DNA of 64,000 bases, taken from contig NZ_JAGTJJ010000001.1 of assembly GCF_028435365.1 (NCBI RefSeq), forward strand, positions 1,054,001-1,118,000, in the 5' to 3' direction. The stretch is from Polyangium jinanense. GTDB taxonomy: Bacteria; Myxococcota; Polyangia; Polyangiales; Polyangiaceae. The notes under the pieces are model-generated. The model made no database searches. It worked only from the letters and a program-made list of their open reading frames with translations, and had not been told where the DNA came from. Below, piece by piece: positions 42,415-61,700 of the stretch. A program made the position numbers and the translations under genes. How positions within the stretch are numbered: the stretch's first letter is position 1; every line of letters begins with the position of its first letter.

Positions 42415-42927
42415 TCAACGTGCCGACGCTTTGGCGCCGAGCCCCGTCATTTGCGTGTTCAGTTGCGTTTCCAGCTCGGTCGCAAAGTCCGAACAGAAGG
42501 ACGCACGGATCCAGTGCGGCCTTCGATGCATCACGAGCGTGGACGCGCTGCTCGAGGCTGCGGCGGTCACCTGCGCGGCCTTCTGCGGCGTGATCACCCC
42601 GTGAACCGCGTGCCGGATCGGCATCCAGACGAAGACCTGGCAAGACCAGGCATTCGAGAAGAAAATACCCCGACCATCCACGAAGCGCAGCGTGGTGCCG
42701 GCGGCTTGCCATCCGCCGGCTTGCTCCGTCCCGCCGTCGGCCACGACGGTGATGAAGGGGAATTCTGCCTCCGAGACGCCGCCGATCCACACGATCGGAC
42801 TTTCCGCTTCCGCGACCCCTTCCGTGTCCTCCGGGACATCCTCCGAAGCCGCCTGCGCAATCGCAGGAATCGCTGCACAAAAGGCCGCGACCATCCACGC
42901 AAACCAGGGATTGCCAGCTCGAACCAT
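42415..42927 (-). CDS. Small exported hypothetical protein, 170 aa
   Basis: Not recognised. The start is ATG 42927, supported by a strong GGAGGAGGAG ribosome-binding site directly after a stable hairpin. A signal peptide ends near IAQAASED; the mature part is short and beta-rich (SPIVWIGGVSEAEFPFITVV), with a Cys pair at SCQVF and SFCSDF. The leader and the first codons lie in a repeat element of about 97 bp whose second copy is upstream of the broken immunity-like gene. It lies downstream of the 994-aa gene. Confidence 0.55.
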   Translation of the reverse strand: MVRAGNPWFAWMVAAFCAAIPAIAQAASEDVPEDTEGVAEAESPIVWIGGVSEAEFPFITVVADGGTEQAGGWQAAGTTLRFVDGRGIFFSNAWSCQVFVWMPIRHAVHGVITPQKAAQVTAAASSSASTLVMHRRPHWIRASFCSDFATELETQLNTQMTGLGAKASAR

Positions 42928-42998
42928 GTCTCCTCCTCCCCGGCAGAACCTGCCGGGCACGCGAGGGCTACATGGGTCCGCTCGGCGTCGCGTCGATG
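42902..42998 (-). repeat. 97-bp dispersed leader element, copy A
   Basis: On the minus strand it carries a hairpin (CCCGGCAGGTTCTGCCGGG) directly 5' of the Shine-Dalgarno and start codon of the 170-aa gene, and also includes the first codons of the gene. It is about 89% identical by hand count (one gap, about 10 mismatches) to copy B at 46816-46911. Confidence 0.8.
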
Positions 42999-46008: not shown

Positions 46009-46143
46009 GGTTTTCGATGGGGGGTGGGTCGAAGGGGCCGGGGTCGGACCGCGGGTTACGGCGACGCTTGGCGTAGGTAAGACAAACTGCACCCGAACGT
46101 CAAGAACAGCCTTGCGCGAAGGCTGCAGCGTGGGCTGATCAGC

Positions 46144-46815: not shown

Positions 46816-46911
46816 AACCAGCGCTTGCCACCTCGACCCATGCCTCCCCCTCCCCGGCAAAGCCTGCCGGGCACGCAGGGCTACATGGGTTCGCTCGGCG
46901 GCGCGTCGATG
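46816..46911 (-). repeat. 97-bp dispersed leader element, copy B
   Basis: This is copy B of the element at 42902-42998, in the same orientation and upstream of the broken immunity-like gene. The hairpin, the purine-rich ribosome-binding site and the ATG are all kept. The start codon opens a 24-codon frame (MGRGGKRWFHPARMNDLGAR) that ends in TGA at the start of the next gene. Confidence 0.8.
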
Positions 46912-46984
46912 ACCGGACCGGCGGGGGCTTCCTTGTCGCTCCGTCCGCCGGACCGTGCGCGCGTGTTCGGGGGACGTCGCGCAC

Positions 46985-47080: not shown

Positions 47081-47539
47081 CCCCCCCGCGACCCACTGTC
47101 ACCTGGCCGCGCATCCACTCCGAACCATCTCCCAAAACTGTCCGAATTCGCCCGGACATGTCCACGCCTCCCCCCGTGACCTCTCGCACCTCTCCCCTCG
47201 ACCCCCTCACCTACCGCCGCCCCCAGTCCCGCCCCTCTTCCCCCCGAGACCCCTTTCCCTCACCCCCACGCCCACTCCTCTCCGCACCGACATCCACCAG
47301 CTCCCCAATCCAGCCTGATCCCTCCTCCCATCCACCCCGCTCAAACCTGCCCCCGACGCCCAATCCCTCCCCGCCATACCCGCCCCTCGCCTCACGAAAC
47401 ACCGACCCCACCCCCGCCCCAATCCCACGGGTAAGGTGCGTATCGTTCGATTGAAAGGACCTGTAAGGACACCACCGAGCCGCAGGGTGATATCGATCCT
47501 TTCGAGAGAGGTTCACCGGACCTCGAAGGAGAATGCCCC

Positions 47540-47740
47540 ATGGCTCACGACGTGGAAGCAATCAAGGGACCTTACGGCTCGATCGGCTGGGTGCAGTGCA
47601 AATCGTGCGGATGGAGCGGCGCCGGCGGCGACCAGCCCCCGAGATGCCCGCCGGCGGCCGCCACGGACCCGGGGACGGGCACGCTAGATCCCGTCGATCC
47701 GCTCGACCCCGAGCCGGTGGTGAAAGAGCCCGCGCCTTGA
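47540..47740 (+). CDS. Small zinc-ribbon-like protein, 66 aa
   Basis: This small protein begins MAHDVEAIKGPYGSIGWVQC and has a CKSCGW knuckle followed by PRCPP, that is, three cysteines that could bind zinc. The tail is Pro/Asp/Glu-rich. A good Shine-Dalgarno (GAAGGAG) precedes the ATG. The function is unknown. It is convergent with the pseudokinase gene, with 7 bp between the stops. Confidence 0.55.
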   Translation: MAHDVEAIKGPYGSIGWVQCKSCGWSGAGGDQPPRCPPAAATDPGTGTLDPVDPLDPEPVVKEPAP

Positions 47741-47747
47741 CGGCGCC

Positions 47748-48968
47748 TCAATCGACGACGCGCACCATGGCCTTCGGCGCCAGCCGATAGCCGTCCTCGA
47801 ATCGCTCGATCACCTCACGCAGCCCGAAATGCCTGAGCCGGGTGAGCGCCACGTACACCCGGTTCGCGCCCACCTCGAAGCTCGGCCGCTCGCCGGGCCA
47901 CCCCGCTTCGAGCAGCTCCCACATCGTGAGCGGCTCGCCCGACCCCGCCTTTTGCTTCTCCACGAGCGCCAGCAAAATGCGCCGCTGCGCCCGGCCGAGC
48001 CGGCGCCGCTCTCCATCCGATCCCGCCACCCAGGCCGCGTCCTGTCCGAGCGTGAGCATGAGCTCCGCGCCCGTCCGCGCTCCGCCCCGCCCGATCAGCG
48101 CGGCGACGTGCGCCTCGAAGGCCTCCGGCTCCGGCACGGCGCCCACGCAGGCGCGGATGCGGTCGGCCACCTCGATCGCCTCCTCCATGCTCGCCCTGAG
48201 CGCTGGCAGCTCGCCGAGCACGCGTTGCTCCACCCAGCGCAAGCAATCGACGAGCTCCGCGTCCGACGGCTGGAGCTCGCCCCGCACGATGCGACCCACG
48301 GCGTCCGAGATGTCCACGTAAGGCATCAGCGAGCGCATGAAAAGCACGAGCGCCACGTAATCGCCCATCGGCGACGCGCTCCCCTGCATTGCGAGCTCGG
48401 GCGCTTGATACGGCGTGAGGGTGCCGTCGCTCGTCCCGTCGTCCTTCTCGACCGGGAAGTTCCTGCCGAATCCTACGAGGAAGAAACGGCCCTCGGCGTT
48501 GAACAGCACATTGCCTGTAGAAATGCGGCCGAGGCAGATCGGCCCGCCCGTGCGCGGGTCACGCTGCGCGTGCGCGGCCTGCATCGCCGTGCGCAGCCCC
48601 ACGATGAACCCGTCGGCCGCGCCATAGGGGATTTTTTGCGTTGAATCGGCCATCGCCCGCACCACGTCCTGACCGTCGACGACAGCGTCGCAGGCGAGCT
48701 CGAGGAATGGCGTCCCCTGCGCCTCGCCGCGAAAGGCGACCTTCGGGATCCGCGGGTGATCGAGAAGCGCGTGCGTGCGCTCCACCTCGGCGAGCGCCTC
48801 GCCGATCCGCCTCGGATTCGCGGATGCTCCAGGGAGCACCACCGTGCAGCGCCCGCCATCGTCCGCGCGCCTCGCTGCGACGACGTTGTACGCGCTGCGC
48901 GATCGAATGGGCACCGGATCGACGTAGCGCTCGAGGAACGAGGGCACGCTCGTGGATACCACATCCAC
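47748..48968 (-). CDS. Pseudokinase fused to winged-helix DNA-binding domain
   Basis: This 406-aa protein has an N-terminal kinase-like fold (residues about 20-280) with lost catalytic signatures. The HRDxKPxN loop reads LGRISTGNVLF (Asn retained, HRD lost), DFG reads VGFGRNF, the glycine loop and VAIK Lys are missing, and only TPYQAPELA resembles the APE region. The C-terminal 90 residues (RRILLALVEKQKAGSGEPLT, then ANRVYVALTRLRHFGLREVI and ERFEDGYRLAP) match the OmpR-type winged helix. It is therefore probably a transcription regulator using a pseudokinase sensor. It is divergent from the first vgrG over 98 bp, suggesting control of that cluster. Confidence 0.7.
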   Translation of the reverse strand: MDVVSTSVPSFLERYVDPVPIRSRSAYNVVAARRADDGGRCTVVLPGASANPRRIGEALAEVERTHALLDHPRIPKVAFRGEAQGTPFLELACDAVVDGQDVVRAMADSTQKIPYGAADGFIVGLRTAMQAAHAQRDPRTGGPICLGRISTGNVLFNAEGRFFLVGFGRNFPVEKDDGTSDGTLTPYQAPELAMQGSASPMGDYVALVLFMRSLMPYVDISDAVGRIVRGELQPSDAELVDCLRWVEQRVLGELPALRASMEEAIEVADRIRACVGAVPEPEAFEAHVAALIGRGGARTGAELMLTLGQDAAWVAGSDGERRRLGRAQRRILLALVEKQKAGSGEPLTMWELLEAGWPGERPSFEVGANRVYVALTRLRHFGLREVIERFEDGYRLAPKAMVRVVD

Positions 48969-49011
48969 GTGGCCCGAGCGACGCCGCCGCGAGCCGCGTC
49001 GCAGTTTACGC

Positions 49012-49041
49012 TTGTCTTCCAGGAAAGGGCCGCTTTAGAGT
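49012..49041 (+). promoter_or_regulatory. Predicted promoter of vgrG module 1
   Basis: TTGTCT (49012-49017), an 18-bp spacer and TAGAGT (49036-49041) give a housekeeping-sigma-like promoter about 26 bp upstream of the ATG at 49067. The same TTG-N3, 18-bp spacer and TAGRGT layout appears in front of module 2. Confidence 0.45.
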
Positions 49042-49066
49042 CATGGCCCCCCAGGAGGCGGCTTTC

Positions 49067-51151
49067 ATGCCGATTCTCGAGCTTTCGTTCGCGTGTGGAG
49101 AGACGTCCTTGTCCGTGCGCCACTTCGCGGTGCAGGAGGCCGTCTCGAGCTTGTTCACCGTGTCCGTGATGGCTCGGTCCGAGAGCCCCGGCATCGACCT
49201 CGAAGCGATCATCGGCAAGCCCGCGAGCCTGCGCGTCGTCAGCGGCTGGCTCTACGCCCGCCTCGGCGGCGCTCGCCTCTGGTCGGGCATCGTCAACTCG
49301 ATCGAGCAGGTGCACGCCGTCCAGCCCGGGGGACAGGGCAAGGAGCTCTCCACCTATTCGCTCACGATCGTCCCCACGTTGTGGCTCCTCACCCAGCGCC
49401 GCAACTACAAGATCTTCCAGCACCTCTCCATCCCCGACATCGTCGATCGTGTCCTCGACGAGTGGAGCCTCGAGCGCACCTGGGCCGTCGATCGCGGCCG
49501 TTATCCCAAGCTCGAGTACAAGGTCCAGTACGGCGAGAGCGACTTCGCGTTCGTGAGCCGCCTGCTCGAAGAAGCGGGCATCTCGTACACGTTCCCCGAC
49601 GACGACGCGAAGGGCTCGAAGCTCACGCTCGGCGACAGCCTCGAAGCGAACCCGCTCCGCCCGGGCCCGGCGCTTCCGTACGTCGACAACCCGAACCGCG
49701 AGTCCGAGAAAGAGTACGTCTCCAAGGTCCGCCTCTCGCAGGCCGTGCGCCCCGGCGCGCACGTGATTCGCGACTACGATTTCCGCAACCCGAGCTACGC
49801 GCTCCTCGGCGACGCCCAGAACGCCGAAGGCAACGAGGCCAAGTACGAGCAGTACCATTACCAGCCCGGCGCCACGCTGATCGAAGGCGGCAAGGGCGGC
49901 GGCACGCCGGTCGCGGACGACAAGGGCACGGCGCGGTACGTCGAGTCGCACGGCAAGGATCGTGCGGCGCGGATGCTCGGCGGGGCGCGGAGCGACCGGC
50001 GCGCGGCCTCGTTCGAGACGAACACGATCGACCTCTGGCCGGGCCAGATCTTCCGCATCGACAAGCACCCGCACGCGCTGCTCGGCGACGAGACGCGCCT
50101 GCTCGTGACGCGCTTCTCCGTCGACGGCACGCCGGGCGAGGAGTGGCACATGTCGGGGCAAGCCGTGTTCACGGACGCGCCCTACAGGCCGCAGCAGAAG
50201 ACGCCGAAGCCCAAGGTCGAGGGCGTGCAGAGCGCGCGTGTGGTCGGGCCTTCGGGCCAGGAGATCCACACCGACGAGTTCGGCCGCGTGCGCGTACAGT
50301 TCCCCTGGGATCGCGACGGCCAGAACGACGACGACAGCTCGTGCTGGATCCGCGTGAGCCAGGGCTGGGCGGGCACGGGGTACGGCATGATCGTGATCCC
50401 GCGCGTCGGGCAGGAGGTCCTCGTTGGCTTCCTCGACGGCGATCCGGATCAGCCGATCGTCGTGGGCCGCGTCTACAACGCGAAGCAGGCCGTCCCGTAC
50501 AAGCTGCCCGAGAACAAGACGCGCTCGGCGTGGAAGACGAACACCTCGCAGGGCGGCGACGGCTTCAACGAGATCATGTTCGAGGATCTCAAGGATCAGG
50601 AGCTCGTCTGGGAGCACGCGCAGAAGAACCGGCGCAGGCTCGTCAAGAACGACGAGACGATCACGATCGGCCACGATCGTCAGAAGCTCGTGCAGAACGA
50701 CGAGCAGGAAAAGACGCTCGGCAACCTCAAGATCTACGTCGGCAAGGACCAGGACGTCGTCGTCAAGCAGGACAAACGCGAGCGCGTCGAGGGTGACGAT
50801 CACCTGGCCGTGTGGGGCAAGCAGAGCACGGCCATCGAGGGCAACCGCTCGTTCGTGGTGCAGGGCGACCGGCACGAGGTCGTTGGGAAAAACCACGCGC
50901 TCGCGGTCGTGCAGGACATCCACGTCGCGGCCGGATCGGCGATCGTCATCGAGGCGGCCAGCGATCTCACGCTGAAGGGCCCCGGCGGGTTCATCCGCAT
51001 CGATTCGGGCGGCGTCACGATCCGCGGCAAGAAGGTCTGGATCAACAGCGGCGGATCGCCCGGCGAAGGCCGTGGCGCGTCGCCCGAGGCGCCGGCCGAG
51101 GCGATCGAGGCGGTCGTGGACGACGTGAGCAAGACCCTGATCGGGCAATAG
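49067..51151 (+). CDS. vgrG: VgrG spike protein, type A, module 1
   Basis: This 694-aa VgrG has the N-terminal gp27-like part (MPILELSFACGETSLSVRHF), with PTLWLLTQRRNYKIFQHLSI and YPKLEYKVQYGESDFAFVSR. The gp5 OB-fold starts near residue 391 (GQEIHTDEFGRVRVQFPWDR), followed by VSQGWAGTGYGMIVIPRVG. The beta-helical needle starts near residue 508 (GFNEIMFEDLKDQELVWEHA). The tail is short with no fused toxin domain, so effectors must bind non-covalently. The ATG at 49067 is chosen over 49043 because an AGGAGG ribosome-binding site precedes it and the module 2 copy starts identically. It is the first gene of a probable operon with PAAR, FHA-DUF4123 and a second VgrG. Confidence 0.9.
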   Translation: MPILELSFACGETSLSVRHFAVQEAVSSLFTVSVMARSESPGIDLEAIIGKPASLRVVSGWLYARLGGARLWSGIVNSIEQVHAVQPGGQGKELSTYSLTIVPTLWLLTQRRNYKIFQHLSIPDIVDRVLDEWSLERTWAVDRGRYPKLEYKVQYGESDFAFVSRLLEEAGISYTFPDDDAKGSKLTLGDSLEANPLRPGPALPYVDNPNRESEKEYVSKVRLSQAVRPGAHVIRDYDFRNPSYALLGDAQNAEGNEAKYEQYHYQPGATLIEGGKGGGTPVADDKGTARYVESHGKDRAARMLGGARSDRRAASFETNTIDLWPGQIFRIDKHPHALLGDETRLLVTRFSVDGTPGEEWHMSGQAVFTDAPYRPQQKTPKPKVEGVQSARVVGPSGQEIHTDEFGRVRVQFPWDRDGQNDDDSSCWIRVSQGWAGTGYGMIVIPRVGQEVLVGFLDGDPDQPIVVGRVYNAKQAVPYKLPENKTRSAWKTNTSQGGDGFNEIMFEDLKDQELVWEHAQKNRRRLVKNDETITIGHDRQKLVQNDEQEKTLGNLKIYVGKDQDVVVKQDKRERVEGDDHLAVWGKQSTAIEGNRSFVVQGDRHEVVGKNHALAVVQDIHVAAGSAIVIEAASDLTLKGPGGFIRIDSGGVTIRGKKVWINSGGSPGEGRGASPEAPAEAIEAVVDDVSKTLIGQ

Positions 51152-51165
51152 GAAGGAGCCGGGCG

Positions 51166-51528
51166 ATGCCTCCTGCCGCGCGCATCACGGATCGACACAA
51201 CTGCGGGATTCATCCGCCGAACGTCATCGTGGAAGGCGAGGGCACGGTCATCGTCGGCTTTCAGCCCCAGGCGCGCGTCGGCGACGCCGAGGCCTGCGGC
51301 GCGGCCATTTCGGCCGGCGAGCCCACCGTCATCATCGGTGGAAAGGACGCCGCGCGAAAAGGCGACCCCACGAACCACGGCGGCACGATCGCGTCGGGCT
51401 GCCCAACCGTGATCATCGGCTCCAATCCGATGGCAGTCCTCCAGACGGACAAACCTTTCTGCGAGGACTGCGCCAAGAAGGCCGCCGAGCGTGCGGCGCG
51501 GCAGAAGGCCGGGAGGGACGGGTCGTGA
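51166..51528 (+). CDS. PAAR-family spike-tip protein, module 1
   Basis: This 120-aa protein is a PAAR/DUF4150-like tip: MPPAARITDRHNCGIHPPNV, then GTVIVGFQPQARVGDAEACG and GDPTNHGGTIASGCPTVIIG. PAAR proteins cap the VgrG needle and can carry effectors. This one ends in a short Cys/Lys-rich tail (FCEDCAKKAAERAARQKAG) without an effector domain. The Shine-Dalgarno GGAAGGAG precedes the ATG. The TGA overlaps the GTG of the adaptor gene. The product differs from the module 2 copy by one residue (CAKK versus CARK). Confidence 0.85.
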   Translation: MPPAARITDRHNCGIHPPNVIVEGEGTVIVGFQPQARVGDAEACGAAISAGEPTVIIGGKDAARKGDPTNHGGTIASGCPTVIIGSNPMAVLQTDKPFCEDCAKKAAERAARQKAGRDGS

Positions 51529-52382
51529 CGGAGCCTCGGCTCATCGTCGAGGTGCGTTATGGCAAGCTCGCCGGCACGAAGACCGTGATCGATTCCGGTC
51601 GCGGCTTGCGCGTGGGCCGGACCGACCTCGCCGACCTCGTCATCGCGCACGACATGCAGATGTCGGGCACGCATTTCGAGCTGCAATGGGACGGCGCGCG
51701 CTGCGCCTTGCGGGACCTCCACAGCCAGAGCGGCACACGCCTCGGCGGGCAGGCCGTCGAGCAAGGCGAGGTCCCGCACGGCGGCTGGATTCAAGCGGGC
51801 GAGACCGATTTCATGGTCTACGTCGAGGGCAAGACGAATCCGCCGGTAGACTTCCTCGAAGAGGACGAGCTCGCGCGGGAACAGGCGCGTGTCCTCGCGG
51901 CCGAACAGGCGCTCTTCTCCCTGCGCTCGCTCGCCGGGGACAAGCCTCTTTATGCCGTCCTCGACATGGCCCGGGATCGACGCATCCTCGCCCTCGTCCG
52001 CGAGCACGTCGAGCTGCACCGCTCGCTTTACGACGGTCCGCAGGGCGAGACGTTCGAGGACGTCGCGCCGTACCTCGTGGGCCCGATGCGCCGCGACTCC
52101 GCGTTGCTCGATCGCCTCGTGCGCGAGGGCTTCGGCAAGCGCTGGGGCATCTATTGCACGAGCGACGAGAAGTTCGTCGAGGTGCGCCGCCATTTCCGGC
52201 GCTTCTTGATGGTCGAGCTCGACGAAACCGGGGAGCAGGTCTATTTCCGTTTCTACGACCCCGGGGTCGCGCGGGTCTTCTGGCCGACGTGCAATGCCGC
52301 GCAACGAACCGAGCTTTACGGCACGCTCGGGGACATCTTCGTCGAGGGCAAGGACCTCTCGCTCCTCCGCCTGCCGCGCTGA
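51525..52382 (+). CDS. FHA-DUF4123 fusion adaptor, module 1
   Basis: This 285-aa protein starts at GTG 51525 (GTGA overlap with PAAR). Residues about 1-105 look like an FHA domain: LRVGRTDLADLVIAHD, MSGTHFEL and LHSQSGTRLGG, with the canonical SRxH changed to SGTH and the NG turn altered. Residues about 140-280 match DUF4123 (LYAVLDMARDRRILALVREH, then YDGPQGETFEDVAPYLVGPM and VYFRFYDPGVARVFWPTC). DUF4123 proteins load effectors on VgrG in T6SS. An FHA domain fused to this adaptor is unusual and suggests a phospho-dependent or protein-binding input. No signal peptide. Confidence 0.75.
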   Translation: MTEPRLIVEVRYGKLAGTKTVIDSGRGLRVGRTDLADLVIAHDMQMSGTHFELQWDGARCALRDLHSQSGTRLGGQAVEQGEVPHGGWIQAGETDFMVYVEGKTNPPVDFLEEDELAREQARVLAAEQALFSLRSLAGDKPLYAVLDMARDRRILALVREHVELHRSLYDGPQGETFEDVAPYLVGPMRRDSALLDRLVREGFGKRWGIYCTSDEKFVEVRRHFRRFLMVELDETGEQVYFRFYDPGVARVFWPTCNAAQRTELYGTLGDIFVEGKDLSLLRLPR

Positions 52383-52400
52383 CGCACTGGGAGTTTTGCG

Positions 52401-54509
52401 ATGGCCATCCTGGATTTGAAGGTCGCCGGAGAACACGAGCTCTTCGTCCGTCATTTCTCCATGGATGAGGGCGTCTCCGAGCTCTTCACGGTCACGCTCC
52501 TCGTCCGCTCGCGCGACCATAGCCTCGACTTCTCCTCCATTGTCGGAAAGCCCGCCACCTTCCGCTTGCAAGCTGGCTACGAGCACGTCGCGGGCGGCGG
52601 CACGCGCGCGCTCGCGGGCATCGTCTCCTATGCGGAGCAGGTCGAAGCTTTGCAGGAGGTCAGCGCCGAGGATGGACTCTCGACCTACGTCCTCTGCATC
52701 GTCCCCGACCTCTGGCTTTTGACCCAGCGCCGCGGCAATCGCATCTTCCAGCACCTCTCGATCCCGGACATCGTCAAGCGTGTCCTCGGCGAATTCGGAA
52801 TCAGCGGCGAGTGGCGCATCGACGGCGGCGCGTATCCCAAGCTCGAGTTCAAGGTCCAGTACGCCGAGACCGATTACGACTTCGTCTCGCGCCTCCTGGA
52901 AGAGGCCGGCGTCGCGTTCGTCTTCGAGGACGGCGGCCGGCTCGTCTTCAGCGACGCGCTCGAAGCGGGCCCGAAGCGCAAAGGCCCGCCCATTCCGTAC
53001 GTCGACAACCCGAGCGTCGCCGCCGAAAAAGAATACGTCAAGAACGTCGGCATCGGCCGCGTCGTGCGTCCCGGCGCCGTCGCGTATCGTGATTACGACC
53101 CGCGCCACCCCGAGCTCGAGCTCACCGCGCTCGCCGCGCCGCACACCGGCGTGGAAAAACCCCTCGAGCAGTACCATTACGATGCCGGCTCCTTCCTCGT
53201 CGAGACGGGCAAGGCCGGCTTCACGCCCGTCGCCGACGACAAGGGGTTTGCCCGGCACGATCATACGTACGGCTACGGCCTCGCCCGCCACACGCTCGAA
53301 GCCGCGCGCGCCGATCACCGCGACGTCACCCTCGAAGGCAACACGCTCGACCTCTCGCCCGGCGTCGTCTTCTCGATCGCGCGCCACCCGCACCCGGAGC
53401 TCTCCGAGGGCCGCTCGCTCGTCGTCGTCGAGAGCAAGCTCTCCGGCTCCGACACAGGCGAGTTCGAGATGAGCGCGCGCGCCTTCTTCACCGATTACAA
53501 ATACCGCCCGCCGAAGAAGACCCCGAAGCCGCTCCTCCACGGCGTGCAGAGCGCGACCGTCGTCGGCCCCGCGGGCCAGGAGATCCACACCGACGAATAC
53601 GGCCGCGTCCGCGTCCAGTTCCCCTGGGATCGCGAGGGCAAACGCGACGACGACAGCTCTTGCTGGATCCACGTGAACCAGGGCTGGGGCGGGCTCGGGT
53701 ATGGAATGCTGAACCTCCCGCGCGTCGGCCAGGAGGTGCTCGTCGTCTTCCTCGAAGGCGACCCCGATCAGCCCGAGGTGGTCGGCCGCGTCTTCAATGC
53801 CATCCAGCAGGTCCCGTACAAGCTGCCGCAGCACAAGACGCGCAGCACGTGGAAGAGCGACACCTCGCTCGGCGGCGGCGGCTTCAACGAGATCATGTTC
53901 GAGGACCTCGCCGAGAAGGAGCTCGTCTGGCAACAGGCGCAAAAAGACCGCCGGCGCAAGGTCGAAAACGACGAGTTCTCCACGATCGTTCACGACCGGA
54001 CGAAGCTCGTGAAGAACGACGAGAACGAGCGTATCGAGGGCAACCAAAAGCTTTGGGTCGGTAAGAATCTCGATGCGGTCACGAAAACGAACAAGCACGA
54101 ATGGATCGAGAAAAACGCTCACCTCGTGGTGAAAGGCAGCCGACGTGAGGAAGTCACAGGCAAGCATTCACTGACGGTGAAAAAAGACCTCCAGGAGAAG
54201 GTCAATGGAAGCCTTGCGCTGCGCGCGGGGAGCGACGTGCACCACGTGGCCGGCGAAAACTGGGTCGGCGAGGGTGGCGGCGACGCGACCGTGAAGGGGC
54301 CCGGCGGCTTCCTCCGTATTGACGGGGGCGGCATTACCATTTCGGGCACGATGGTGTGGATCAACGAGCGCGGATCCCCCGGCAAGGGCCGCGGCGCGAA
54401 GGCCGAGGCGCCCGCGTTCGGCGAGCAGACGGGCCCCAAGCTCGACGAGGGCCTCGGCGAAGGGTCCGGCCAGCTCGGCGACGAAGAAGAGGCGAGCTGC
54501 CAGCATTGA
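52401..54509 (+). CDS. vgrG: VgrG spike protein, type B, module 1
   Basis: This 702-aa VgrG, MAILDLKVAGEHELFVRHFS, belongs to a second subtype, more like the module 2 partner (58 kb) than the type A VgrGs. The OB-fold is near residue 390 (GQEIHTDEYGRVRVQFPWDR), followed by needle repeats (GFNEIMFEDLAEKELVWQQA). The C-terminal tail is acidic (GEGSGQLGDEEEASCQH) with no toxin domain. It starts 18 bp after the adaptor. The two VgrG subtypes and PAAR made by one operon could form mixed trimers, which is inference. Confidence 0.9.
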   Translation: MAILDLKVAGEHELFVRHFSMDEGVSELFTVTLLVRSRDHSLDFSSIVGKPATFRLQAGYEHVAGGGTRALAGIVSYAEQVEALQEVSAEDGLSTYVLCIVPDLWLLTQRRGNRIFQHLSIPDIVKRVLGEFGISGEWRIDGGAYPKLEFKVQYAETDYDFVSRLLEEAGVAFVFEDGGRLVFSDALEAGPKRKGPPIPYVDNPSVAAEKEYVKNVGIGRVVRPGAVAYRDYDPRHPELELTALAAPHTGVEKPLEQYHYDAGSFLVETGKAGFTPVADDKGFARHDHTYGYGLARHTLEAARADHRDVTLEGNTLDLSPGVVFSIARHPHPELSEGRSLVVVESKLSGSDTGEFEMSARAFFTDYKYRPPKKTPKPLLHGVQSATVVGPAGQEIHTDEYGRVRVQFPWDREGKRDDDSSCWIHVNQGWGGLGYGMLNLPRVGQEVLVVFLEGDPDQPEVVGRVFNAIQQVPYKLPQHKTRSTWKSDTSLGGGGFNEIMFEDLAEKELVWQQAQKDRRRKVENDEFSTIVHDRTKLVKNDENERIEGNQKLWVGKNLDAVTKTNKHEWIEKNAHLVVKGSRREEVTGKHSLTVKKDLQEKVNGSLALRAGSDVHHVAGENWVGEGGGDATVKGPGGFLRIDGGGITISGTMVWINERGSPGKGRGAKAEAPAFGEQTGPKLDEGLGEGSGQLGDEEEASCQH

Positions 54510-54543
54510 CGCAGAGCGACACGTTTTTGCGCCCATTTTGATC

Positions 54544-54573
54544 TTGAGCCCGACCGCGAAGCCGGTTTAGGGT
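54544..54573 (+). promoter_or_regulatory. Predicted promoter of vgrG module 2
   Basis: TTGAGC (54544-54549), an 18-bp spacer and TAGGGT (54568-54573) match the layout upstream of module 1. Here the leader before the ATG at 54644 is longer, about 64 nt. Conservation of the layout in both copies supports a real promoter. Confidence 0.4.
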
Positions 54574-54643
54574 GCCGGTGCCAAAATTCGGACAGTACGC
54601 GCATTGGTCCTGGCGGTCACGTCACGTCGAGGAGGCGGCTTCC

Positions 54644-56728
54644 ATGCCGATCTTGGAGCTATCGTTCGCTAGTGGTGAGACGTCGTTGTCGGTGCGCCAC
54701 TTCTCGGTGCAAGAGAGCGTCTCGAGCTTGTTCAGCGTGAACGTGATGGCGCGTTCGGAGAGCCCTTCGATCGATCTCGAAGCGATCGTCGGGCAGCCAG
54801 CGAGCCTCCGCGTCGTGAGCGGCTGGCAGTACGCGCGCCTCGGCGGCGCGCGGCTCTGGACGGGCGTGGTGAGCTCGATCGAGCAGGTGCACGCGGTGCA
54901 GCCGGGCGGCCAAGGCAAGGAGCTGTCGACGTATTCGCTCCGCATCGTGCCGACCTTGTGGCTGCTCACGCAGCGGCGCGGGTATCGCATCTACCAGCAC
55001 CTCTCGATCCCCGACATCGTCGATCGTCTGCTCGGCGAGTGGAACGTCGAGTCGAAGTGGGAGATCGATCGGGGCCGCTACCCGAAGCTCGAGTACAAGG
55101 TGCAGTACGGCGAGACCGATTTCGCCTTCGTGAGCCGCCTGCTCGAAGAGGCGGGCATCTCGTACACGTTCCCGGACGACGACGCGAAGGGCTCGAAGCT
55201 CACGCTGAGTGATCGCCTCGAAGCGAACCCCGCGCGGCCCGGCGGCGCCCTGCCCTACGTGGACAACCCGAACCGCGAGTCCGAGAAGGAGTACCTCTCG
55301 AAGGTCCGCCTCACGCACCTCGTCCGGCCGGGCGCGCACACGATTCGCGACTACGATTTCCGCAATCCGATGTTCGCGCTCTTCGGCGAGTCGCCGAAGG
55401 CCGAGGGCCCCGAGGCCAAGTACGAGCAGTATCATTATCAGCCGGGCGCCACGCTCGTCGAGAACGGCAAGGGCGGCGGCGGCACGCCGACCGCGGACGA
55501 CAAGGGCACGGCGCGCTACGATCAAGGGTTCGGCAAGGACCGCGCGGACCGCATGCTCGGTGGCACGCGCGCGGACAAGCGCACGATCGCCTTCGAGACG
55601 AACACGATCGATCTCTGGCCGGGGCAAATCTTCTCCGTCGACAAACACCCGCACGCCGAGCTCGGCGACGACAAACGCCTGCTCGTGACGGAGTTCACGG
55701 TCGAGGGCACGCCAGGCGAGGAGTGGAGCATGTCGGGGCAAGCCGTGTTCACGGACGCGCCCTACAGGCCGCAGCAGAAGACGTCGAAGCCGAAGGTCGA
55801 GGGCGTGCAGAGCGCGGTCGTGGTGGGTCCATCCGGCCAGGAGATCCACACCGACGAGTTCGGCCGTGTGCGCGTGCAGTTCCCCTGGGATCGCGAGGGG
55901 AAAAACGACGACAATAGCTCCTGCTGGATCCGCGTGAGCCAGGGCTGGGCGGGCACGGGGTACGGCATGATCGTGATCCCGCGCATCGGGCACGAGGTGA
56001 TGGTCGGCTTCCTCGACGGCGATCCGGATCAGCCGATCATCGTGGGCCGCGTCTACAACGCGAAGCAGGCCGTACCGTACAAGCTGCCGGACAACAAGAC
56101 GCGCTCGACGTGGAAGAGCGATACGTCGCTCGGCGGCAACGGCTTCAACGAGATCATGTTCGAGGATCTCAAGGGCCAGGAGCTCGTCTGGGAGCAGGCG
56201 CAAAAGAACCGGCGCAGGCTGGTCAAGAACGACGAGACGATCACGATCGGCCACGATCGGCAGAAGCTCGTCTCGAACGACGAGCAGGACAAGACGATCG
56301 GCTTCGTCAAGGTGTTCGTCGGCAAGGACCAGGACATCGTCATCAAGCAGGACAAACGCGAGCGCGTCGAGGGCAACAGCCACCTGCACGTGCAGGGCAA
56401 GCGCAACCAGCGCATCGAGGGCAATCAGTCGCTCGAAGTGAAGGGCGATCGGCACGAGCTCATCGGCGAGAACCACGCGCTCGCGGTGTCGAAGGAGCTC
56501 CACATCAAGGCGGGCACGGCGCTCGTGATCGAGGCCGAGGATCTCACGCTGAAGGGCCCGGGCGGGTTCATCCGCATCGACGGCAGCGGCGTCACGATCC
56601 GCGGCACGAAGGTCTACATCAACAGCGGCGGCGCGGCGGGCCAGGGCTCGGGCGCGTCGCCGGAGAAGCCGGACGAGGCGATCGAGGCGGTCGTCGACGA
56701 CGTGAGCAAGACGCTCATCGCGCAATAA
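54644..56728 (+). CDS. vgrG: VgrG spike protein, type A, module 2
   Basis: This 694-aa protein is collinear with the VgrG at 49067, with the same length and start (MPILELSFASGETSLSVRHF) after GGAGGCGGCTTCC. The OB-fold and needle match throughout (GQEIHTDEFGRVRVQFPWDR, then GFNEIMFEDLKGQELVWEQA). The main differences lie in the surface loops of the gp27-like part and in the needle. No toxin extension is present. The gene follows the first module with only 134 bp between them. Confidence 0.9.
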   Translation: MPILELSFASGETSLSVRHFSVQESVSSLFSVNVMARSESPSIDLEAIVGQPASLRVVSGWQYARLGGARLWTGVVSSIEQVHAVQPGGQGKELSTYSLRIVPTLWLLTQRRGYRIYQHLSIPDIVDRLLGEWNVESKWEIDRGRYPKLEYKVQYGETDFAFVSRLLEEAGISYTFPDDDAKGSKLTLSDRLEANPARPGGALPYVDNPNRESEKEYLSKVRLTHLVRPGAHTIRDYDFRNPMFALFGESPKAEGPEAKYEQYHYQPGATLVENGKGGGGTPTADDKGTARYDQGFGKDRADRMLGGTRADKRTIAFETNTIDLWPGQIFSVDKHPHAELGDDKRLLVTEFTVEGTPGEEWSMSGQAVFTDAPYRPQQKTSKPKVEGVQSAVVVGPSGQEIHTDEFGRVRVQFPWDREGKNDDNSSCWIRVSQGWAGTGYGMIVIPRIGHEVMVGFLDGDPDQPIIVGRVYNAKQAVPYKLPDNKTRSTWKSDTSLGGNGFNEIMFEDLKGQELVWEQAQKNRRRLVKNDETITIGHDRQKLVSNDEQDKTIGFVKVFVGKDQDIVIKQDKRERVEGNSHLHVQGKRNQRIEGNQSLEVKGDRHELIGENHALAVSKELHIKAGTALVIEAEDLTLKGPGGFIRIDGSGVTIRGTKVYINSGGAAGQGSGASPEKPDEAIEAVVDDVSKTLIAQ

Positions 56729-56742
56729 AAGGAGCCACGAAG

Positions 56743-57105
56743 ATGCCTCCTGCCGCACGAATCACGGATCGCCACAACTGCGGGATTCATCCGCCGAATG
56801 TCATCGTGGAGGGCGAGGGCACGGTCATCGTCGGCTTTCAGCCCCAGGCGCGCGTCGGCGACGCCGAGGCTTGCGGCGCGGCCATTTCAGCCGGCGAGCC
56901 CACCGTCATCATCGGCGGGAAGGACGCCGCGCGAAAAGGCGACCCCACGAACCACGGCGGAACGATCGCGTCGGGGTGCCCAACCGTCATCATCGGCTCC
57001 AATCCGATGGCCGTCCTCCAGACGGACAAACCTTTCTGCGAGGACTGCGCCAGGAAGGCCGCCGAGCGCGCCGCGCGGCAGAAGGCCGGGAGGGACGGGT
57101 CGTGA
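56743..57105 (+). CDS. PAAR-family spike-tip protein, module 2
   Basis: This 120-aa PAAR protein is almost identical to the module 1 copy, including at third-codon positions. That is far closer than the flanking VgrG and adaptor genes, which suggests recent gene conversion. It starts MPPAARITDRHNCGIHPPNV and ends in the same Cys/Lys-rich tail. Its TGA overlaps the GTG of the adaptor gene. It should cap the VgrG trimer made from the neighbouring genes. Confidence 0.85.
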   Translation: MPPAARITDRHNCGIHPPNVIVEGEGTVIVGFQPQARVGDAEACGAAISAGEPTVIIGGKDAARKGDPTNHGGTIASGCPTVIIGSNPMAVLQTDKPFCEDCARKAAERAARQKAGRDGS

Positions 57106-57962
57106 CGGAGCCTCGGCTCATCGTCGAGGTGCGTTATGGCAAGCTCGCCGGCACGAAAAAGGCCGTCGAGGCGGGTCACGCGCTGAAGGTCGGCCGCACC
57201 GAGCTCGCGGACCTCGTCATCGCGCACGACGGGCAGATGTCGGGCACGCATTTCGAGCTGCAATGGGACGGCGCGTCGTGCCTCTTGCGTGACCTCAGCA
57301 GCCAGGGCGGGACGCGCCTCGGCGGCCAGGCCACCACGCAGGGCGAAGTCCCGCACGGCGGCTGGATTCAGGCGGGCGAGACCGATTTCCTGGTGTACGT
57401 CGAGGGCAAGACGAAGCCGCCGCGGCGAAAGCTCGAACGTTCACCCGAGGACGAAGAAGCGCGCATCGAGGCGGCGGCGCGTGCGTGCGAGCGTTTGCGC
57501 GCGGAGGCGGCGAAGGCGCCGCTTTATGCCGTCGTCGACGGCGCGCGTGACCGCCGGATCCTCGAAGTGCTGCGCGAGGGTGTCGAGCCGCATCAATCGC
57601 TCTACGACGGCCTGCAGGGTGAGACGCTCGAAGACGTCGCGCCGTATCTCGTGGGCCCGTTCCGCAAGGACTCGGCGCTGCTCGACCGTCTCCTCGCCGA
57701 GGGTTTCGGCAACCGCTGGGGCATCTTCTGCACGAGCTACGACAAGTTCGTGGAGGTGCGGCGGCACTGGCGGCGCTTCTTGATGGTGACCCTCGAATCG
57801 ACGAACGAGAAGGTCTACTTCCGTTTCTACGATCCGGGCGTGTTCCGCGTCTTCTGGCCGACCTGCAGCCCCGCGCAACGCCAGGAGTTCTCGGCCGGCA
57901 TGGAGGAAATCTTCGTCGAGGAAGAGGACCTCTCGATCTCGGCGCTCGTAAGGCCTCACTGA
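57102..57962 (+). CDS. FHA-DUF4123 fusion adaptor, module 2
   Basis: This 286-aa protein has the same FHA (LKVGRTELADLVIAHD, MSGTHFEL) plus DUF4123 layout as the module 1 copy (YAVVDGARDRRILEVLREG, then YFRFYDPGVFRVFWPTC). The first 20 residues are encoded by nearly identical DNA in both copies, but the linker and DUF4123 have diverged. That would fit adaptors specialising for different cargo. GTGA overlap with PAAR implies translational coupling. Confidence 0.75.
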   Translation: MTEPRLIVEVRYGKLAGTKKAVEAGHALKVGRTELADLVIAHDGQMSGTHFELQWDGASCLLRDLSSQGGTRLGGQATTQGEVPHGGWIQAGETDFLVYVEGKTKPPRRKLERSPEDEEARIEAAARACERLRAEAAKAPLYAVVDGARDRRILEVLREGVEPHQSLYDGLQGETLEDVAPYLVGPFRKDSALLDRLLAEGFGNRWGIFCTSYDKFVEVRRHWRRFLMVTLESTNEKVYFRFYDPGVFRVFWPTCSPAQRQEFSAGMEEIFVEEEDLSISALVRPH

Positions 57963-57977
57963 TTCGGAGTCAATGCC

Positions 57978-60113
57978 GTGGCAAACCTCGAGCTCTCCCT
58001 CGCCTCCGGTCAACGCGACCTCTACGTGCGGCGTTTTTCCGTCCGGGAAGCCGTCTCGAACCTCTTTTCGATTCACCTCCTCGTCCGCTCGCCGGACCAT
58101 AGCCTCGACCTCGGGGCCGTGGTCGGGTATCCCGCGGGCTTCCGCCTGCACGCCGGGTATGCCCACGTGCAGAGCGGCGCCCAGCGCACGTGGACGGGCA
58201 TCGTGTCCCGCGCCGAGCAGGCGCACGCGCTGCAAGAGGTCTCCGCCGAGGACGGGCTCTCGACGTACCACATCCACATCGTGCCGGAGCTCTGGCTGCT
58301 CACGCATCGCCAGAACAATCGCATCTACCAGCAGGTCTCGATTCCGGACATCCTCGATCGCCTCCTCGGCGAGTGGAACATCCGGCCGACCTGGCGCATC
58401 GAGCGCGACAAGTATCCGAAGCTCGATTACAAGGTCCAGTACCGGGAGACCGATTACGCCTTCATGTGCCGCCTCCTCGAAGAGGCGGGCATCGCGTATA
58501 CCCTGAGCGAGCACCCCGAACGTGGCACGACGCTCGTCTTCGGCGATCGCATCCAGACGAACCCGCCCCGCTCCGGCCCGCCCATTCCGTACGTCGACAA
58601 CCCGAACGAGGCGGCCGAGAAGGAGTTCATCAGCCGCGTGCGCTTCGGCCGCGAGGTTCGCCCCGGCGCGGCGACGTTCCGCGATTACGACCCGCGCAAG
58701 CCCGATCTCGCCCTCTTCGGCAAGGCCGAGCCGACGGCCGGCATCGAGGGCAAGATGGAGCAATACCATTACGACGCGGGCTCCTTCCTCGTCGAGACGG
58801 GCAAGGCCGAAGGCACGCCGAACGCCGATGATCGCGGCTTCGCGCGGCACGATGGCAAATACGGCACCGAGCTCTCGACGCGTGTCCTCGAAGCTGAGCG
58901 CACGGGCGAGCGGATGGTCTCCTTCGCGGCCAACACGTTCGACCTCGCGCCGGGCGTCATCTTCTCGATGGCGCGCCACCCGCATGCAGCACTCCCCGAG
59001 AGCCGCCAGTTCCTCGTCGTCGGCGCCTCGCTCGAAGGCACGGACACGGGCGATTTCAGCTTCTACGGCCACGCGTTCTTCGCCGAGGCGCCTTATCGTC
59101 CGGCAAGGCAGACGCCGAAGCCGCGCATCAACGGCTTGCAAAGCGCGACGGTCGTCGGGCCCTCGGGCCAGGAGATCCACGTCGACGAGTTCGGCCGCGT
59201 GCGCGTACAATTCCACTGGGATCGCGAGGGCCAGAAGAACGAGCAGAGCTCGTGCTGGATCCGCGTGAGCCAGGGCTGGGGCGGCATGGGCTATGGCATG
59301 GTCACCGTGCCCCGCATCGGCCACGAGGTGCTCATTGCGTACCTCGAGGGCGACCCGGACCACCCGATCATCGTGGGCCGTGTCTACAACGCCGCCCAGC
59401 AGGTCCCGTACAAGCTGCCGCAAGACAAGACGCGCAGCACGTGGAAGAGCGATTCCTCGCTCGGCTCGGACGGGTTCAACGAGATCATGTTCGAGGATCT
59501 CGCGCAGAAAGAGCTCGTCTGGCAGCAGGCGCAGAAGGACCGCAACCGGAACGTCAACAACGACGAGTTCGCCACGATCGTCCACGACCGGCAGAAGCTC
59601 GTGAAGAACGACGAATCCGAGCAGACGATGGGCAACCGCAAGTTCTGGGTCGGCAAGGATTACGACGAGGTCACGAAGCAAAACAAGAACGAGACGTACA
59701 ACAAAGACGTCCACCTCGTGGTGAAGGGCAGCCGGCGCGAGCGGATCGACGGCAAGCAATCCCTCACGGTGAAGAAGAGCCGCCACGAGAAGGTCGAGGG
59801 TCGCAGCGCGCTCCGGGCAGGCCAAGAGATTCACCACGTGGCCGGCGAGGAGTGGGTTGGCGAGGCGGGCGGCGCGGCCACGATCAAGGGCCCGGGCGGC
59901 TTCATCAAGCTCGACGGCGCGGGCGTCACGATCTGGGGCACGATGGTGTGGATCAACGAGCGCGGCGAGCCTGGCGACGGCAGCGGCAGCAAGCCCGAGG
60001 AGCCCTTCGATCCGCCCCCGCCCGAGGAGCAGGCCACGTCCGACGAGAGCCCGAATGATCACGCCCCGGTCGATGATCCCGCCGACGAGGACGGGACCTC
60101 GATCCCGTCATGA
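57978..60113 (+). CDS. vgrG: VgrG spike protein, type B, module 2
   Basis: This 711-aa VgrG uses GTG 57978 (MANLELSLASGQRDLYVRRF). It has the OB-fold (GQEIHVDEFGRVRVQFHWDR) and needle (GFNEIMFEDLAQKELVWQQA). The C-terminal tail is longer than in the module 1 partner and Pro/Asp/Glu-rich (ending PADEDGTSIPS), with no toxin domain. It is 15 bp downstream of the adaptor. The two amidase genes follow at 84 and 855 bp, in the same direction, so cargo delivery by this VgrG is a reasonable guess. Confidence 0.9.
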   Translation: MANLELSLASGQRDLYVRRFSVREAVSNLFSIHLLVRSPDHSLDLGAVVGYPAGFRLHAGYAHVQSGAQRTWTGIVSRAEQAHALQEVSAEDGLSTYHIHIVPELWLLTHRQNNRIYQQVSIPDILDRLLGEWNIRPTWRIERDKYPKLDYKVQYRETDYAFMCRLLEEAGIAYTLSEHPERGTTLVFGDRIQTNPPRSGPPIPYVDNPNEAAEKEFISRVRFGREVRPGAATFRDYDPRKPDLALFGKAEPTAGIEGKMEQYHYDAGSFLVETGKAEGTPNADDRGFARHDGKYGTELSTRVLEAERTGERMVSFAANTFDLAPGVIFSMARHPHAALPESRQFLVVGASLEGTDTGDFSFYGHAFFAEAPYRPARQTPKPRINGLQSATVVGPSGQEIHVDEFGRVRVQFHWDREGQKNEQSSCWIRVSQGWGGMGYGMVTVPRIGHEVLIAYLEGDPDHPIIVGRVYNAAQQVPYKLPQDKTRSTWKSDSSLGSDGFNEIMFEDLAQKELVWQQAQKDRNRNVNNDEFATIVHDRQKLVKNDESEQTMGNRKFWVGKDYDEVTKQNKNETYNKDVHLVVKGSRRERIDGKQSLTVKKSRHEKVEGRSALRAGQEIHHVAGEEWVGEAGGAATIKGPGGFIKLDGAGVTIWGTMVWINERGEPGDGSGSKPEEPFDPPPPEEQATSDESPNDHAPVDDPADEDGTSIPS

Positions 60114-60197: not shown

Positions 60198-60908
60198 ATG
60201 AACGTTTCGTCCAAGCAGCAGCAGCAGGTCGCGGGTGCAAACGGCGTCCAGAAGTGCGCCGTCGTCGTGGTGATCGATCCGGGGCACGGCGATACACACG
60301 ACGAGAGCAGCGTCGTCGACCCGGGGGCCGTCGGCGGTGGCCTCCAGGAGAGTGACTACGTCCTCGAGGTCTCGAAGCTCCTCAAGGGCAAGCTCGCCGC
60401 GCGGACCGACGTCATCGAGGCGGTGCACCTGACCCGTGAGGGCATCGCCAATGACCCCTCGCAGGAGAAGCTTCTGTGGCGCCAGAAGGTCGCTGTCGCC
60501 AAGAAGGCCGATATCTTCGTCAGCCTCCACCTGAACTCCAACGCGAATACAGCGGCCCTGGGCAAAGAGGTCTACTACAATCAGAAAGCGTCCAACAAGG
60601 CGGAGAGCGCGAAGCTCGCGGCCTCGCTGTACGCGGCATACAAACTGCCGCTCGACCCCCGGGGCGTCAAAACGATGGGCCTCAGCGTGCTTGCCACGTA
60701 CAAGTGGAAGTCGAAAAAGCTCGGCATCTGGCGCGATTCCACGATCTTCCAATCGGTGAAGGCTGCCGCGCTCTTCGAGCTGGGCTTCATCTCGAATACG
60801 GGAGACCGCACGGCCGTCCTCAACAACAAGGACCCGATCGCCGAGTATCTCTGCGAAGGGATCTGCTCGTACGCGAGCGCCAATCGCGCCGCGCTCTGCG
60901 GCCCCTGA
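60198..60908 (+). CDS. Amidase_3 peptidoglycan amidase without signal peptide (candidate effector)
   Basis: This 236-aa N-acetylmuramoyl-L-alanine amidase (Amidase_3) shows the zinc/active-site motifs DPGHG (about residue 26), the Glu in LQESDYVLEVSKLL, SLHLN (about 108) and FELGFISN (about 194). It should cut the bond between MurNAc and the stem peptide. It has no Sec or Tat signal and no wall-binding domain, although substrates lie outside the cytoplasm. Together with its place after vgrG this makes a T6SS-type effector likely. No immunity gene with a signal peptide is visible next to it. Confidence 0.75.
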   Translation: MNVSSKQQQQVAGANGVQKCAVVVVIDPGHGDTHDESSVVDPGAVGGGLQESDYVLEVSKLLKGKLAARTDVIEAVHLTREGIANDPSQEKLLWRQKVAVAKKADIFVSLHLNSNANTAALGKEVYYNQKASNKAESAKLAASLYAAYKLPLDPRGVKTMGLSVLATYKWKSKKLGIWRDSTIFQSVKAAALFELGFISNTGDRTAVLNNKDPIAEYLCEGICSYASANRAALCGP

Positions 60909-60968: not shown

Positions 60969-61700
60969 ATGACGACCGTATCCCCGGACCAAGAAAAGGC
61001 GCTCGCAACGGAGCAGAGCGACGGCAGCGCCGTCCAGAAATGCGCCGTCATCGTGGTCATCGACCCCGGGCACGGAGACCGGCTCAAGAAGGGAAACCCG
61101 ATCGACCCCGGCTGCGTCCATGGCGACATCTACGAGAAGGACCTCGCGCTCGCCATTGGAAAGCTCCTGAAGCCGAAGCTCGAGGCGAAGACCAGTTGCG
61201 TCGAGTCCGTCCACCTGACGCGCGACGGCGATATCAGCGAGCTCCGGAGGAGGCTCCACTGGCGGACCAACATCGCCAAGGACAAGAAGGCGAACATCTT
61301 CATCAGCCTCCACCTCGACGCGGCCGGCGCGTCGGCGTCAGGCCAGTCGGTCTGCCATCACCCGAGTTTCAAGAACTCGGTCAAGCTCGCGACTGCGATC
61401 TCCGCGCGCGCCAAGGTGGTCAAGCCCAAAACGAAGGGCGCCATCAGTCCCAGGAGCGACCTCCACGTGCTCAACAAGAACCATTTCGGCAAGGAGACGA
61501 AAGCCTCCGTGCTGATCGAGCTCGGGTTCATCTCGAACGACGCCGACCGCACGGCCTGCCAGACGAAGCAGAGCGAGATCGCGGCCGAGATCGCCGACGG
61601 CGTCGAGGATTTCATCCTCGCGAACAAGGCCATCTTCAGCGAGGACTCCAGCCTGCCGAAGAACGTGCCCATCCCGCAGCCCCGCCCGGCCAATCGATGA
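60969..61700 (+). CDS. Second Amidase_3 amidase without signal peptide (candidate effector)
   Basis: This 243-aa paralogue of the preceding amidase has VQKCAVIVVIDPGHGD (about residue 32), the Glu in YEKDLALAIGKLL, ISLHLD (about 112) and IELGFISN (about 184). The two share the VQKCAV-VVIDPGHGD start but differ elsewhere, so they form a diverged pair. A GGAGG ribosome-binding site precedes the ATG and a proline-rich tail ends the protein. No signal peptide is present. Its stop is 6 bp from the convergent sensor gene, leaving no room for an immunity gene. Confidence 0.75.
   Translation: MTTVSPDQEKALATEQSDGSAVQKCAVIVVIDPGHGDRLKKGNPIDPGCVHGDIYEKDLALAIGKLLKPKLEAKTSCVESVHLTRDGDISELRRRLHWRTNIAKDKKANIFISLHLDAAGASASGQSVCHHPSFKNSVKLATAISARAKVVKPKTKGAISPRSDLHVLNKNHFGKETKASVLIELGFISNDADRTACQTKQSEIAAEIADGVEDFILANKAIFSEDSSLPKNVPIPQPRPANR

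Follow-up and report, generated by a model that had tools for sequence, protein, structure and literature searches.

Two diverged VgrG/PAAR/FHA-DUF4123/VgrG modules in tandem in Polyangium jinanense, read as candidate spike-loading cassettes of a type VI secretion system

Two tandem modules, each comprising genes for a VgrG protein, a PAAR protein, a fused FHA-DUF4123 adaptor and a second VgrG protein, were analysed in a 64,000-nucleotide stretch of DNA (the window) from the soil bacterium Polyangium jinanense. They are best read as two paralogous spike-loading cassettes of a type VI secretion system (T6SS), the machinery of which would be encoded elsewhere, with the second cassette loading amidases by way of its adaptor; a probability of roughly 0.6 is assigned to this reading. 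The names VgrG-A and VgrG-B were coined in the present analysis for the VgrGs encoded before (slot-1) and after (slot-2) the adaptor gene, and the modules at 49067..54509 and 54644..60113 are referred to as copy 1 and copy 2. Comparisons were made between seven genomes, namely that of the window and six other Polyangium genomes (G001–G006; G002 is P. spumosum and G006 is P. mundeleinium); G037 denotes Chondromyces crocatus.

According to the cassette reading, each module would supply the tip for a T6SS encoded elsewhere, and the DUF4123 adaptor would load cargo onto one of the VgrGs encoded in the same cassette. Copy 2 would launch two leaderless peptidoglycan amidases into the periplasm of prey, as gene linkage and the missing signal peptide suggest, and copy 1 would launch cargo encoded elsewhere. 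VgrG-A would act as a constant carrier, its conserved C-terminal tail probably serving for docking, and VgrG-B as the specialising partner. Specificity may be carried by VgrG-B and the adaptor, because these have diverged most. The PAAR cap would be interchangeable common stock, so that gene conversion could replace it, or the cassette could persist without it.

Divergence and age of the two copies

All eight open genes proposed by the initial annotation were found at their start positions (Table 1), and in all four gene pairs the distance between the starts is exactly 5,577 bp. The module content that it had named agrees with the Pfam results: Phage_GPD (gp27-like), Phage_base_V (OB) and Gp5_trimer_C domains were detected in 4/4 VgrGs of the window, a PAAR gene is linked to VgrGs in both modules, and DUF4123 (PF13503) is present in both adaptors (E about 2e-30). 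The two VgrG subtypes of each module are real subtypes, because VgrG-A and VgrG-B are only 54–57% identical as proteins.

The duplication had further been described as exact, and this had to be given up. Gene-by-gene alignment of copy 1 with copy 2 gave DNA identities of 84.5% (VgrG-A), 95.6% (PAAR), 76.1% (adaptor) and 71.7% (VgrG-B), and protein identities (BLASTP) of 82, 99, 72 and 64%, respectively; the modules are homologous in tandem (72–96% at the DNA level), as had been claimed, but the duplication is old, has diverged and is found in other members of the genus. When the sequence was compared with itself at the fixed offset of 5,577, identity was 0.58–0.96 in two blocks and at background level elsewhere, a patchiness that arises because small indels compensate one another. 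The exact spacing is itself partly arithmetic, since it results from near-equal gene lengths together with these compensating indels. A simple exact duplication is ruled out by the patchy fixed-offset identity in combination with the gene-wise divergence. The comparison of synonymous and nonsynonymous substitution (dS/dN), which had been recommended for each paralogue pair, gave 0.39/0.118 for VgrG-A, 0.19/0.004 for PAAR, 0.55/0.233 for the adaptor and 0.60/0.283 for VgrG-B, corresponding to ratios (omega) of 0.31–0.47 in the three genes other than PAAR.

A double array is present in four of the six other Polyangium genomes, and is complete with both PAAR genes in G001 and G003, as in the window; in G002 and G005, copy 1 of the double array has no PAAR gene, and G004 and G006 carry a single array of the copy-2 type. 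The arrays of the six genomes represent one locus, because uvrC lies upstream in all of them with unchanged relative orientation. Across positions 47448–60113 (12.7 kb), the window shares 96% identity with G001, the nearest genome. An assembly artefact, a concern raised with the initial annotation, is excluded by this match and by the recurrence of the double array in the further genomes G003, G005 and G002.

In the trees of VgrG-A, adaptor and VgrG-B, the sequences cluster according to copy, and the approximately unbiased (AU) test rejected clustering according to genome (p 6.9e-7 or less), so that a recent duplication within the genus is ruled out as the origin of copy 1. For the same three genes, DNA identity amounts to 95–97% for orthologues versus 72–85% for paralogues. 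Descent of copy 1 from an unrelated module is disfavoured because the two copies lie next to each other in trees that include other modules (support for their split from other modules: VgrG-A 99, adaptor 82, VgrG-B 88). The duplication is placed by the trees before these Polyangium species, whichever history of loss holds. G004 and G006 are sisters in the uvrC tree (support 99), and a single loss of copy 1 therefore suffices; the joined tree of copy-2 genes groups G006 with G002 (support 95), and two losses would then be needed.

These losses could also be taken to mean that copy 1 is a redundant leftover, that is, a non-essential, decaying duplicate retained by chance. Decay would agree with the absence of copy 1 from 2/7 genomes, with the missing PAAR gene in two of the remaining five, with the lack of cargo adjoining copy 1 and with the omega of 0.31–0.47 between the window paralogues, as compared with 0.06–0.27 between orthologues; it is at odds with the open reading frames of the copy-1 VgrG-A, adaptor and VgrG-B genes in all five genomes having copy 1, with purifying selection on the copy-1 orthologues (omega 0.10–0.22) and with a VgrG-B1 tail whose end is similar in 5/5. 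On balance, a leftover is considered improbable.

Table 1. Positions of the genes of both modules and of the adjoining amidase genes in the window.
Feature	Position	Strand	Length (aa)	Description
VgrG-A copy 1	49067..51151	+	694	slot-1; C-terminus DDVSKTLIGQ; Pfam PF05954, PF04717, PF22178
PAAR copy 1	51166..51528	+	120	PF05488; within low-divergence tract common with copy 2 (~51165–51580)
FHA-DUF4123 adaptor copy 1	51525..52382	+	285	PF00498 + PF13503
VgrG-B copy 1	52401..54509	+	702	slot-2; short tail without toxin domain (Pfam)
VgrG-A copy 2	54644..56728	+	694	slot-1; C-terminus DDVSKTLIAQ (Pfam)
PAAR copy 2	56743..57105	+		protein 99% identical to PAAR copy 1 (Pfam, BLASTP)
FHA-DUF4123 adaptor copy 2	57102..57962	+	286	Pfam
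VgrG-B copy 2	57978..60113	+	711	slot-2; short tail without toxin domain (Pfam)
Amidase_3 gene 1	60198..60908	+	236	PF01520 (E 6.6e-28); candidate T6SS cargo; no signal peptide by eye
Amidase_3 gene 2	60969..61700	+	243	PF01520 (E 1.9e-30); 39% identical to gene 1 (BLASTP); candidate T6SS cargo

History of the PAAR gene

The PAAR gene appears to follow the genome rather than the copy. Among the ten PAAR genes compared, the nearest relative of each copy-1 PAAR gene is the copy-2 PAAR gene of its own genome in 3/3 genomes (window 95.6%, G001 97.0%, G003 93.9% identity), and the copy-1 PAAR genes of the window and G001 are 93.1% identical. This is the reverse of the pattern in VgrG-A, adaptor and VgrG-B, for which orthologues exceed paralogues in identity. 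The tract of low divergence between the copies runs from the PAAR start to codon 19 of the adaptor gene (51165–51580 in the window), with an identical endpoint in three genomes. Within the first 57 nt of the adaptor gene, copies 1 and 2 show one difference in the three genomes with a copy-1 PAAR gene and six in G005 and G002; in the next 60 nt, 14–19 differences were counted across the five genomes. In copy 1 of G005 and G002, that is, in 2/5 genomes with copy 1, the adaptor gene follows VgrG-A1 directly and PAAR is absent. These observations are read as conversion of the copy-1 gene by copy 2 together with loss in some genomes, a reading that, like the pattern by genome, is supported and not proven; PAAR could equally well have been lost from copy 1 early and regained from copy 2.

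The likeness of the PAAR genes might alternatively be due to strong constraint on PAAR, without any gene conversion, as the 99% protein identity between the copies would suggest. Silent sites were examined for this comparison. PAAR does not evolve slowly at silent sites when species are compared: between the copy-2 gene of the window (W2) and the copy-2-type gene of G004 (G004_2), four-fold sites differ at 20/67 positions in PAAR, 41/344 in VgrG-A, 21/150 in the adaptor and 43/341 in VgrG-B. Between paralogues, PAAR shows a deficit of four-fold site differences relative to the other three genes in G001 (p = 1.5e-5, Fisher) and G003 (p = 0.035), values that overstate the evidence because the orthologues are not independent. 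Constraint on PAAR is also difficult to reconcile with the proximity of every copy-1 PAAR gene to the copy-2 gene of its own genome, and with a tract that extends through adaptor codon 19, has a common endpoint in three genomes and is stronger where copy 1 has a PAAR gene (1 vs 6 differences per 57 nt). It is therefore regarded as quite improbable.

Several results weigh against exchange of PAAR. The contrast at four-fold sites gave p = 0.052 in the window. The pairs by genome in the PAAR tree have modest support (window 55, G001 85, G003 63), and a tree in which the copy-1 PAAR genes were constrained together was not rejected at the 5% level (AU p = 0.063, log-likelihood difference 18), a grouping by copy that the constraint explanation would also accommodate. 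Viewed from copy 2, the PAAR gene of the window is nearest to its G001 orthologue (96.7 vs 95.6%) and that of G003 to its G005 orthologue (94.2 vs 93.9%); this is expected if the direction of copying was from copy 2 to copy 1.

Silent divergence between the copies is also low at about 50387–50506 in VgrG-A1 (codons ~440–480, OB-fold region), where the proportion of silent differences (pS) is 0.12 in the window, 0.09 in G001 and 0.035 in G003. This stretch is possibly a second exchange tract.

Paired VgrGs, adaptor, candidate cargo and machinery

Tails of slot-1 and slot-2 VgrGs were surveyed at 57 adaptor places in 51 hand-picked sources (the window and 50 loci), which do not constitute a census. 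A VgrG gene on either side of the adaptor gene, with both tails readable, was found at 29 of these places. The ending [LIV][GA]Q occurs in 28/29 slot-1 and 0/29 slot-2 VgrGs; tails of more than 100 aa occur in 0/29 and 14/29, respectively. After exclusion of the locus family of the window, the ending was counted in 16/17 slot-1 versus 0/17 slot-2 VgrGs and the long tail in 0/17 versus 14/17. Modules with a slot-1 VgrG only have the ending in 3/18 cases with a readable tail. No readable slot-1 tail was obtained at 10/57 places, at six of which there was no VgrG match and at four of which the tail pattern was not found (L088, L106, L109, L110); the VgrG of L088, counted as unreadable, ends in LGQ. 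A two-VgrG locus below the adaptor threshold (L014, G001c44) lacks the slot-1 motif, and its inclusion changes the count to 28/30. The slot-2 gene of L085 could fall past the end of the contig.

In a tree of 46 VgrG sequences, the slot-2 VgrGs form one clade (support 97) with the exception of that from L014, and the pairs remain together across Polyangium, Chondromyces and G009. The tails of VgrG-B1 and of VgrG-B2 are each alike among genomes and unlike one another. Such pairing, with one PAAR gene per two VgrGs, a separate slot-2 clade and a slot-1 motif that accompanies a slot-2 VgrG in 28/29 modules versus 3/18, could indicate a heterotypic spike, as was also suggested with the initial annotation; VgrG-A and VgrG-B would then assemble into mixed trimers capped by a single PAAR, giving one composite spike per cassette and two in total. 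Heterotrimeric VgrG has been proposed for Vibrio and Aeromonas, in a paper that ascribes the need to several effectors and not to mixed trimers as such (PMC8668125); VgrG1 and VgrG2 of Serratia, however, were not found as heterotrimers, and such trimers were argued against (PMC4924876). The association of the motif may, moreover, stem from a single ancestor and not from function. Mixed trimers are rated as unlikely. The same applies to a broader proposal, of which we remain doubtful, that the Polyangiaceae tip would be inherited as a paired-VgrG cassette with a constant slot-1 VgrG bearing a docking peptide, a variable slot-2 VgrG carrying or recruiting cargo, a phospho-reading FHA-DUF4123 adaptor, one mixed spike and a shared PAAR moving by gene conversion.

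DUF4123 adaptors are reported to load specific effectors onto cognate VgrGs (PMC6971182). The search with the adaptor returned 1,858 relatives; all of the 120 listed carry PF13503 and 118 also PF00498, so the fusion is common in the group and not peculiar to this locus. An AlphaFold2 (AF2) model of the copy-1 adaptor (mean pLDDT, the predicted local distance difference test score, of 89.8) consists of an FHA domain, a long helix and a DUF4123 part. The best matches in the PDB are FHA domains, with 3po8 as the best Foldseek hit (template modelling score, TM(target), 0.90); of 50 Foldseek rows, mostly FHA matches, none was named as an adaptor that would provide a solved structure for the DUF4123 part. 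Residues R32, S47 and H50 are invariant in 38/38 aligned proteins (copy 1 of the window and 37 picked from the 120 listed), and the pocket resembles those of phosphothreonine-binding FHA domains in fold and in its R, S and H residues (Foldseek, alignment). A phosphothreonine partner for the FHA domain is probable.

At least one amidase gene is located directly behind copy 2 in 7/7 genomes, window included: two in the window, G001, G003, G004 and G005, and one predicted in G002 and G006. The VgrG-B stop and the amidase start overlap by 4 nt in G001, G003, G004 and G005. No signal peptide was seen by eye in the amidases of the window and the compared genomes. Both window amidases satisfy the Amidase_3 family profile, and their H30, E51, H111 and E194 are invariant in 18 aligned rows (two from the window and 16 picked from 120 listed). 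Solved relatives include CwlV (1jwq) and AmiC (4bin). As a proxy for adaptor–amidase linkage, 43 adaptor and 32 amidase record lengths, taken from parts of two lists of 120, were compared: nine lengths, including that of the window, are common to the best matches of both searches, and two further shared lengths (11 altogether) rest on adaptor places found in other searches.

Other modules carry different putative cargo. A Tle1-like phospholipase and a DUF5675 protein are encoded between adaptor and slot-2 VgrG among the proteins scanned, long VgrG tails show similarity to a lipase or to a C39 peptidase (E about 3e-5), and one slot-1-only module has a nuclease; of the ten proteins of other modules that were scanned, five gave a putative cargo match and five did not. 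In the window, both the gap between adaptor and slot-2 VgrG and the VgrG tail are free of cargo, and the candidates come after VgrG-B2. The suggestion of cargo-specific launching modules, made with the initial annotation, fits the different putative cargo of other modules, the amidases behind copy 2 and the copy-specific VgrG-B tails. The amidase genes, the exchange of PAAR and the losses of PAAR or of copy 1 in related genomes had not been noted in that annotation.

Core T6SS genes had been reported as absent from the window, and a tblastn comparison at E 1e-3 with 45 predicted proteins, taken from three G001 loci with sheath genes, gave no match there. The recommended search for tss genes elsewhere was carried out in G001, the nearest genome. 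VipB (sheath) matches were obtained on three contigs, and locus L021 encodes TssB, TssC, Hcp, gp25-like, TssF, TssG, TssK, DotU and IcmF-related proteins (Pfam).

The following points have to be set against the cassette reading. The function of copy 1 is its weakest part: no cargo gene adjoins this copy, and only 134 nt separate VgrG-B1 from VgrG-A2. Amidase delivery by a T6SS and binding of cargo by the adaptor are candidate roles. Amidase gene 1 of the window starts 84 nt after VgrG-B2, with no overlap. No immunity gene common to the genomes was seen beside the amidase genes, which is odd for an antibacterial effector. Finally, at the position of the canonical FHA Asn before GT, copy 1 has Ser and copy 2 has Gly; this residue is mostly replaced and variable across the family, with Asn in P0005.

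Several neighbouring genes were noted in addition. A 399-aa protein is encoded at 47748–48947 (-) of the window, without a Pfam match at E 0.1; by eye, its N-terminal part resembles a degenerate kinase and its C-terminus a winged helix. Its gene is divergent from copy 1 in the window, G005 and G003, and lies inside the stretch aligned to G001. Membership in the system is disfavoured, as 159 relatives were detected, those with names belonging to myxobacteria, and no such gene was predicted next to the array of G002, G004 or G006. An open frame of 1,022 aa at 43024–46092 (-) likewise has no Pfam match at E 0.1. Matches to the short stretches 42782–42998 and 46816–46920 occur at two or more positions of the syntenic stretch L009 in G001. 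In G006, a gene convergent with the array and downstream of it encodes an 864-aa DUF2169 protein (L056, 13956–16550 (-), E 7.6e-66); genes with a similar N-terminus occur in G002 and G004 (L055 and L057). A stabilising effect of DUF2169 proteins on PAAR-like proteins has been reported (PMC13373197).

Comparison with known systems

Natural mixing of VgrG types in T6SS spikes is disputed (PMC4924876, PMC8668125), and the co-inherited VgrG classes with opposite C-terminal rules and one PAAR and one adaptor per pair make the question directly testable. An exchanged PAAR beside a strongly diverged VgrG-B and adaptor points to the parts that may set cargo specificity. The literature searched, which lacks most subscription journals, contained no description of this cassette recognisable by title or by the start of the abstract. 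For Chondromyces apiculatus, 35 PAAR genes have been reported (PMC8651086).

Among N-acetylmuramoyl-L-alanine amidases, CwlV (1jwq) and AmiC (4bin) share the Amidase_3 family and the conserved residues with the Polyangium proteins, which differ in having no signal peptide by eye and in being encoded beside T6SS spike genes. On plasmid p2ABSDF of Acinetobacter baumannii SDF, one locus likewise combines a PAAR gene and a pair of vgrG genes with a putative effector of the amidase type; the amidase described there is, however, Tae4 with an immunity protein, whereas Polyangium has Amidase_3 without a shared immunity gene, an FHA-DUF4123 adaptor and tandem copies (PMC6838775). Serratia, with VgrG1-Paar1 and VgrG2-Rhs, resembles Polyangium in having several VgrG/PAAR combinations for one T6SS, but its PAARs are described as different and VgrG-specific, whereas those of Polyangium are 99% identical as proteins (PMC4924876, PMC13373197). 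TvpC, from the Serratia comparison, resembles VgrG but lacks the gp27 part (PMC13373197), which all four VgrGs of the window possess.

A parallel is also offered by vgrG loci such as those of Agrobacterium, in which VgrG, PAAR, adaptor and cargo genes are linked, several paralogous modules occur per genome and recombination within the loci has been reported (PMC6971182, PMC8546570); vgrG islands and DUF4123 adaptors as such are known (PMC8546570). Unlike these loci, the Polyangium modules contain two distinct VgrGs and an FHA-fused adaptor, form a tandem pair with PAAR exchange and have their cargo candidates after the second VgrG. The cassette would extend the known vgrG islands by a two-VgrG, FHA-DUF4123, tandem and PAAR-exchanging form that appears to be new.

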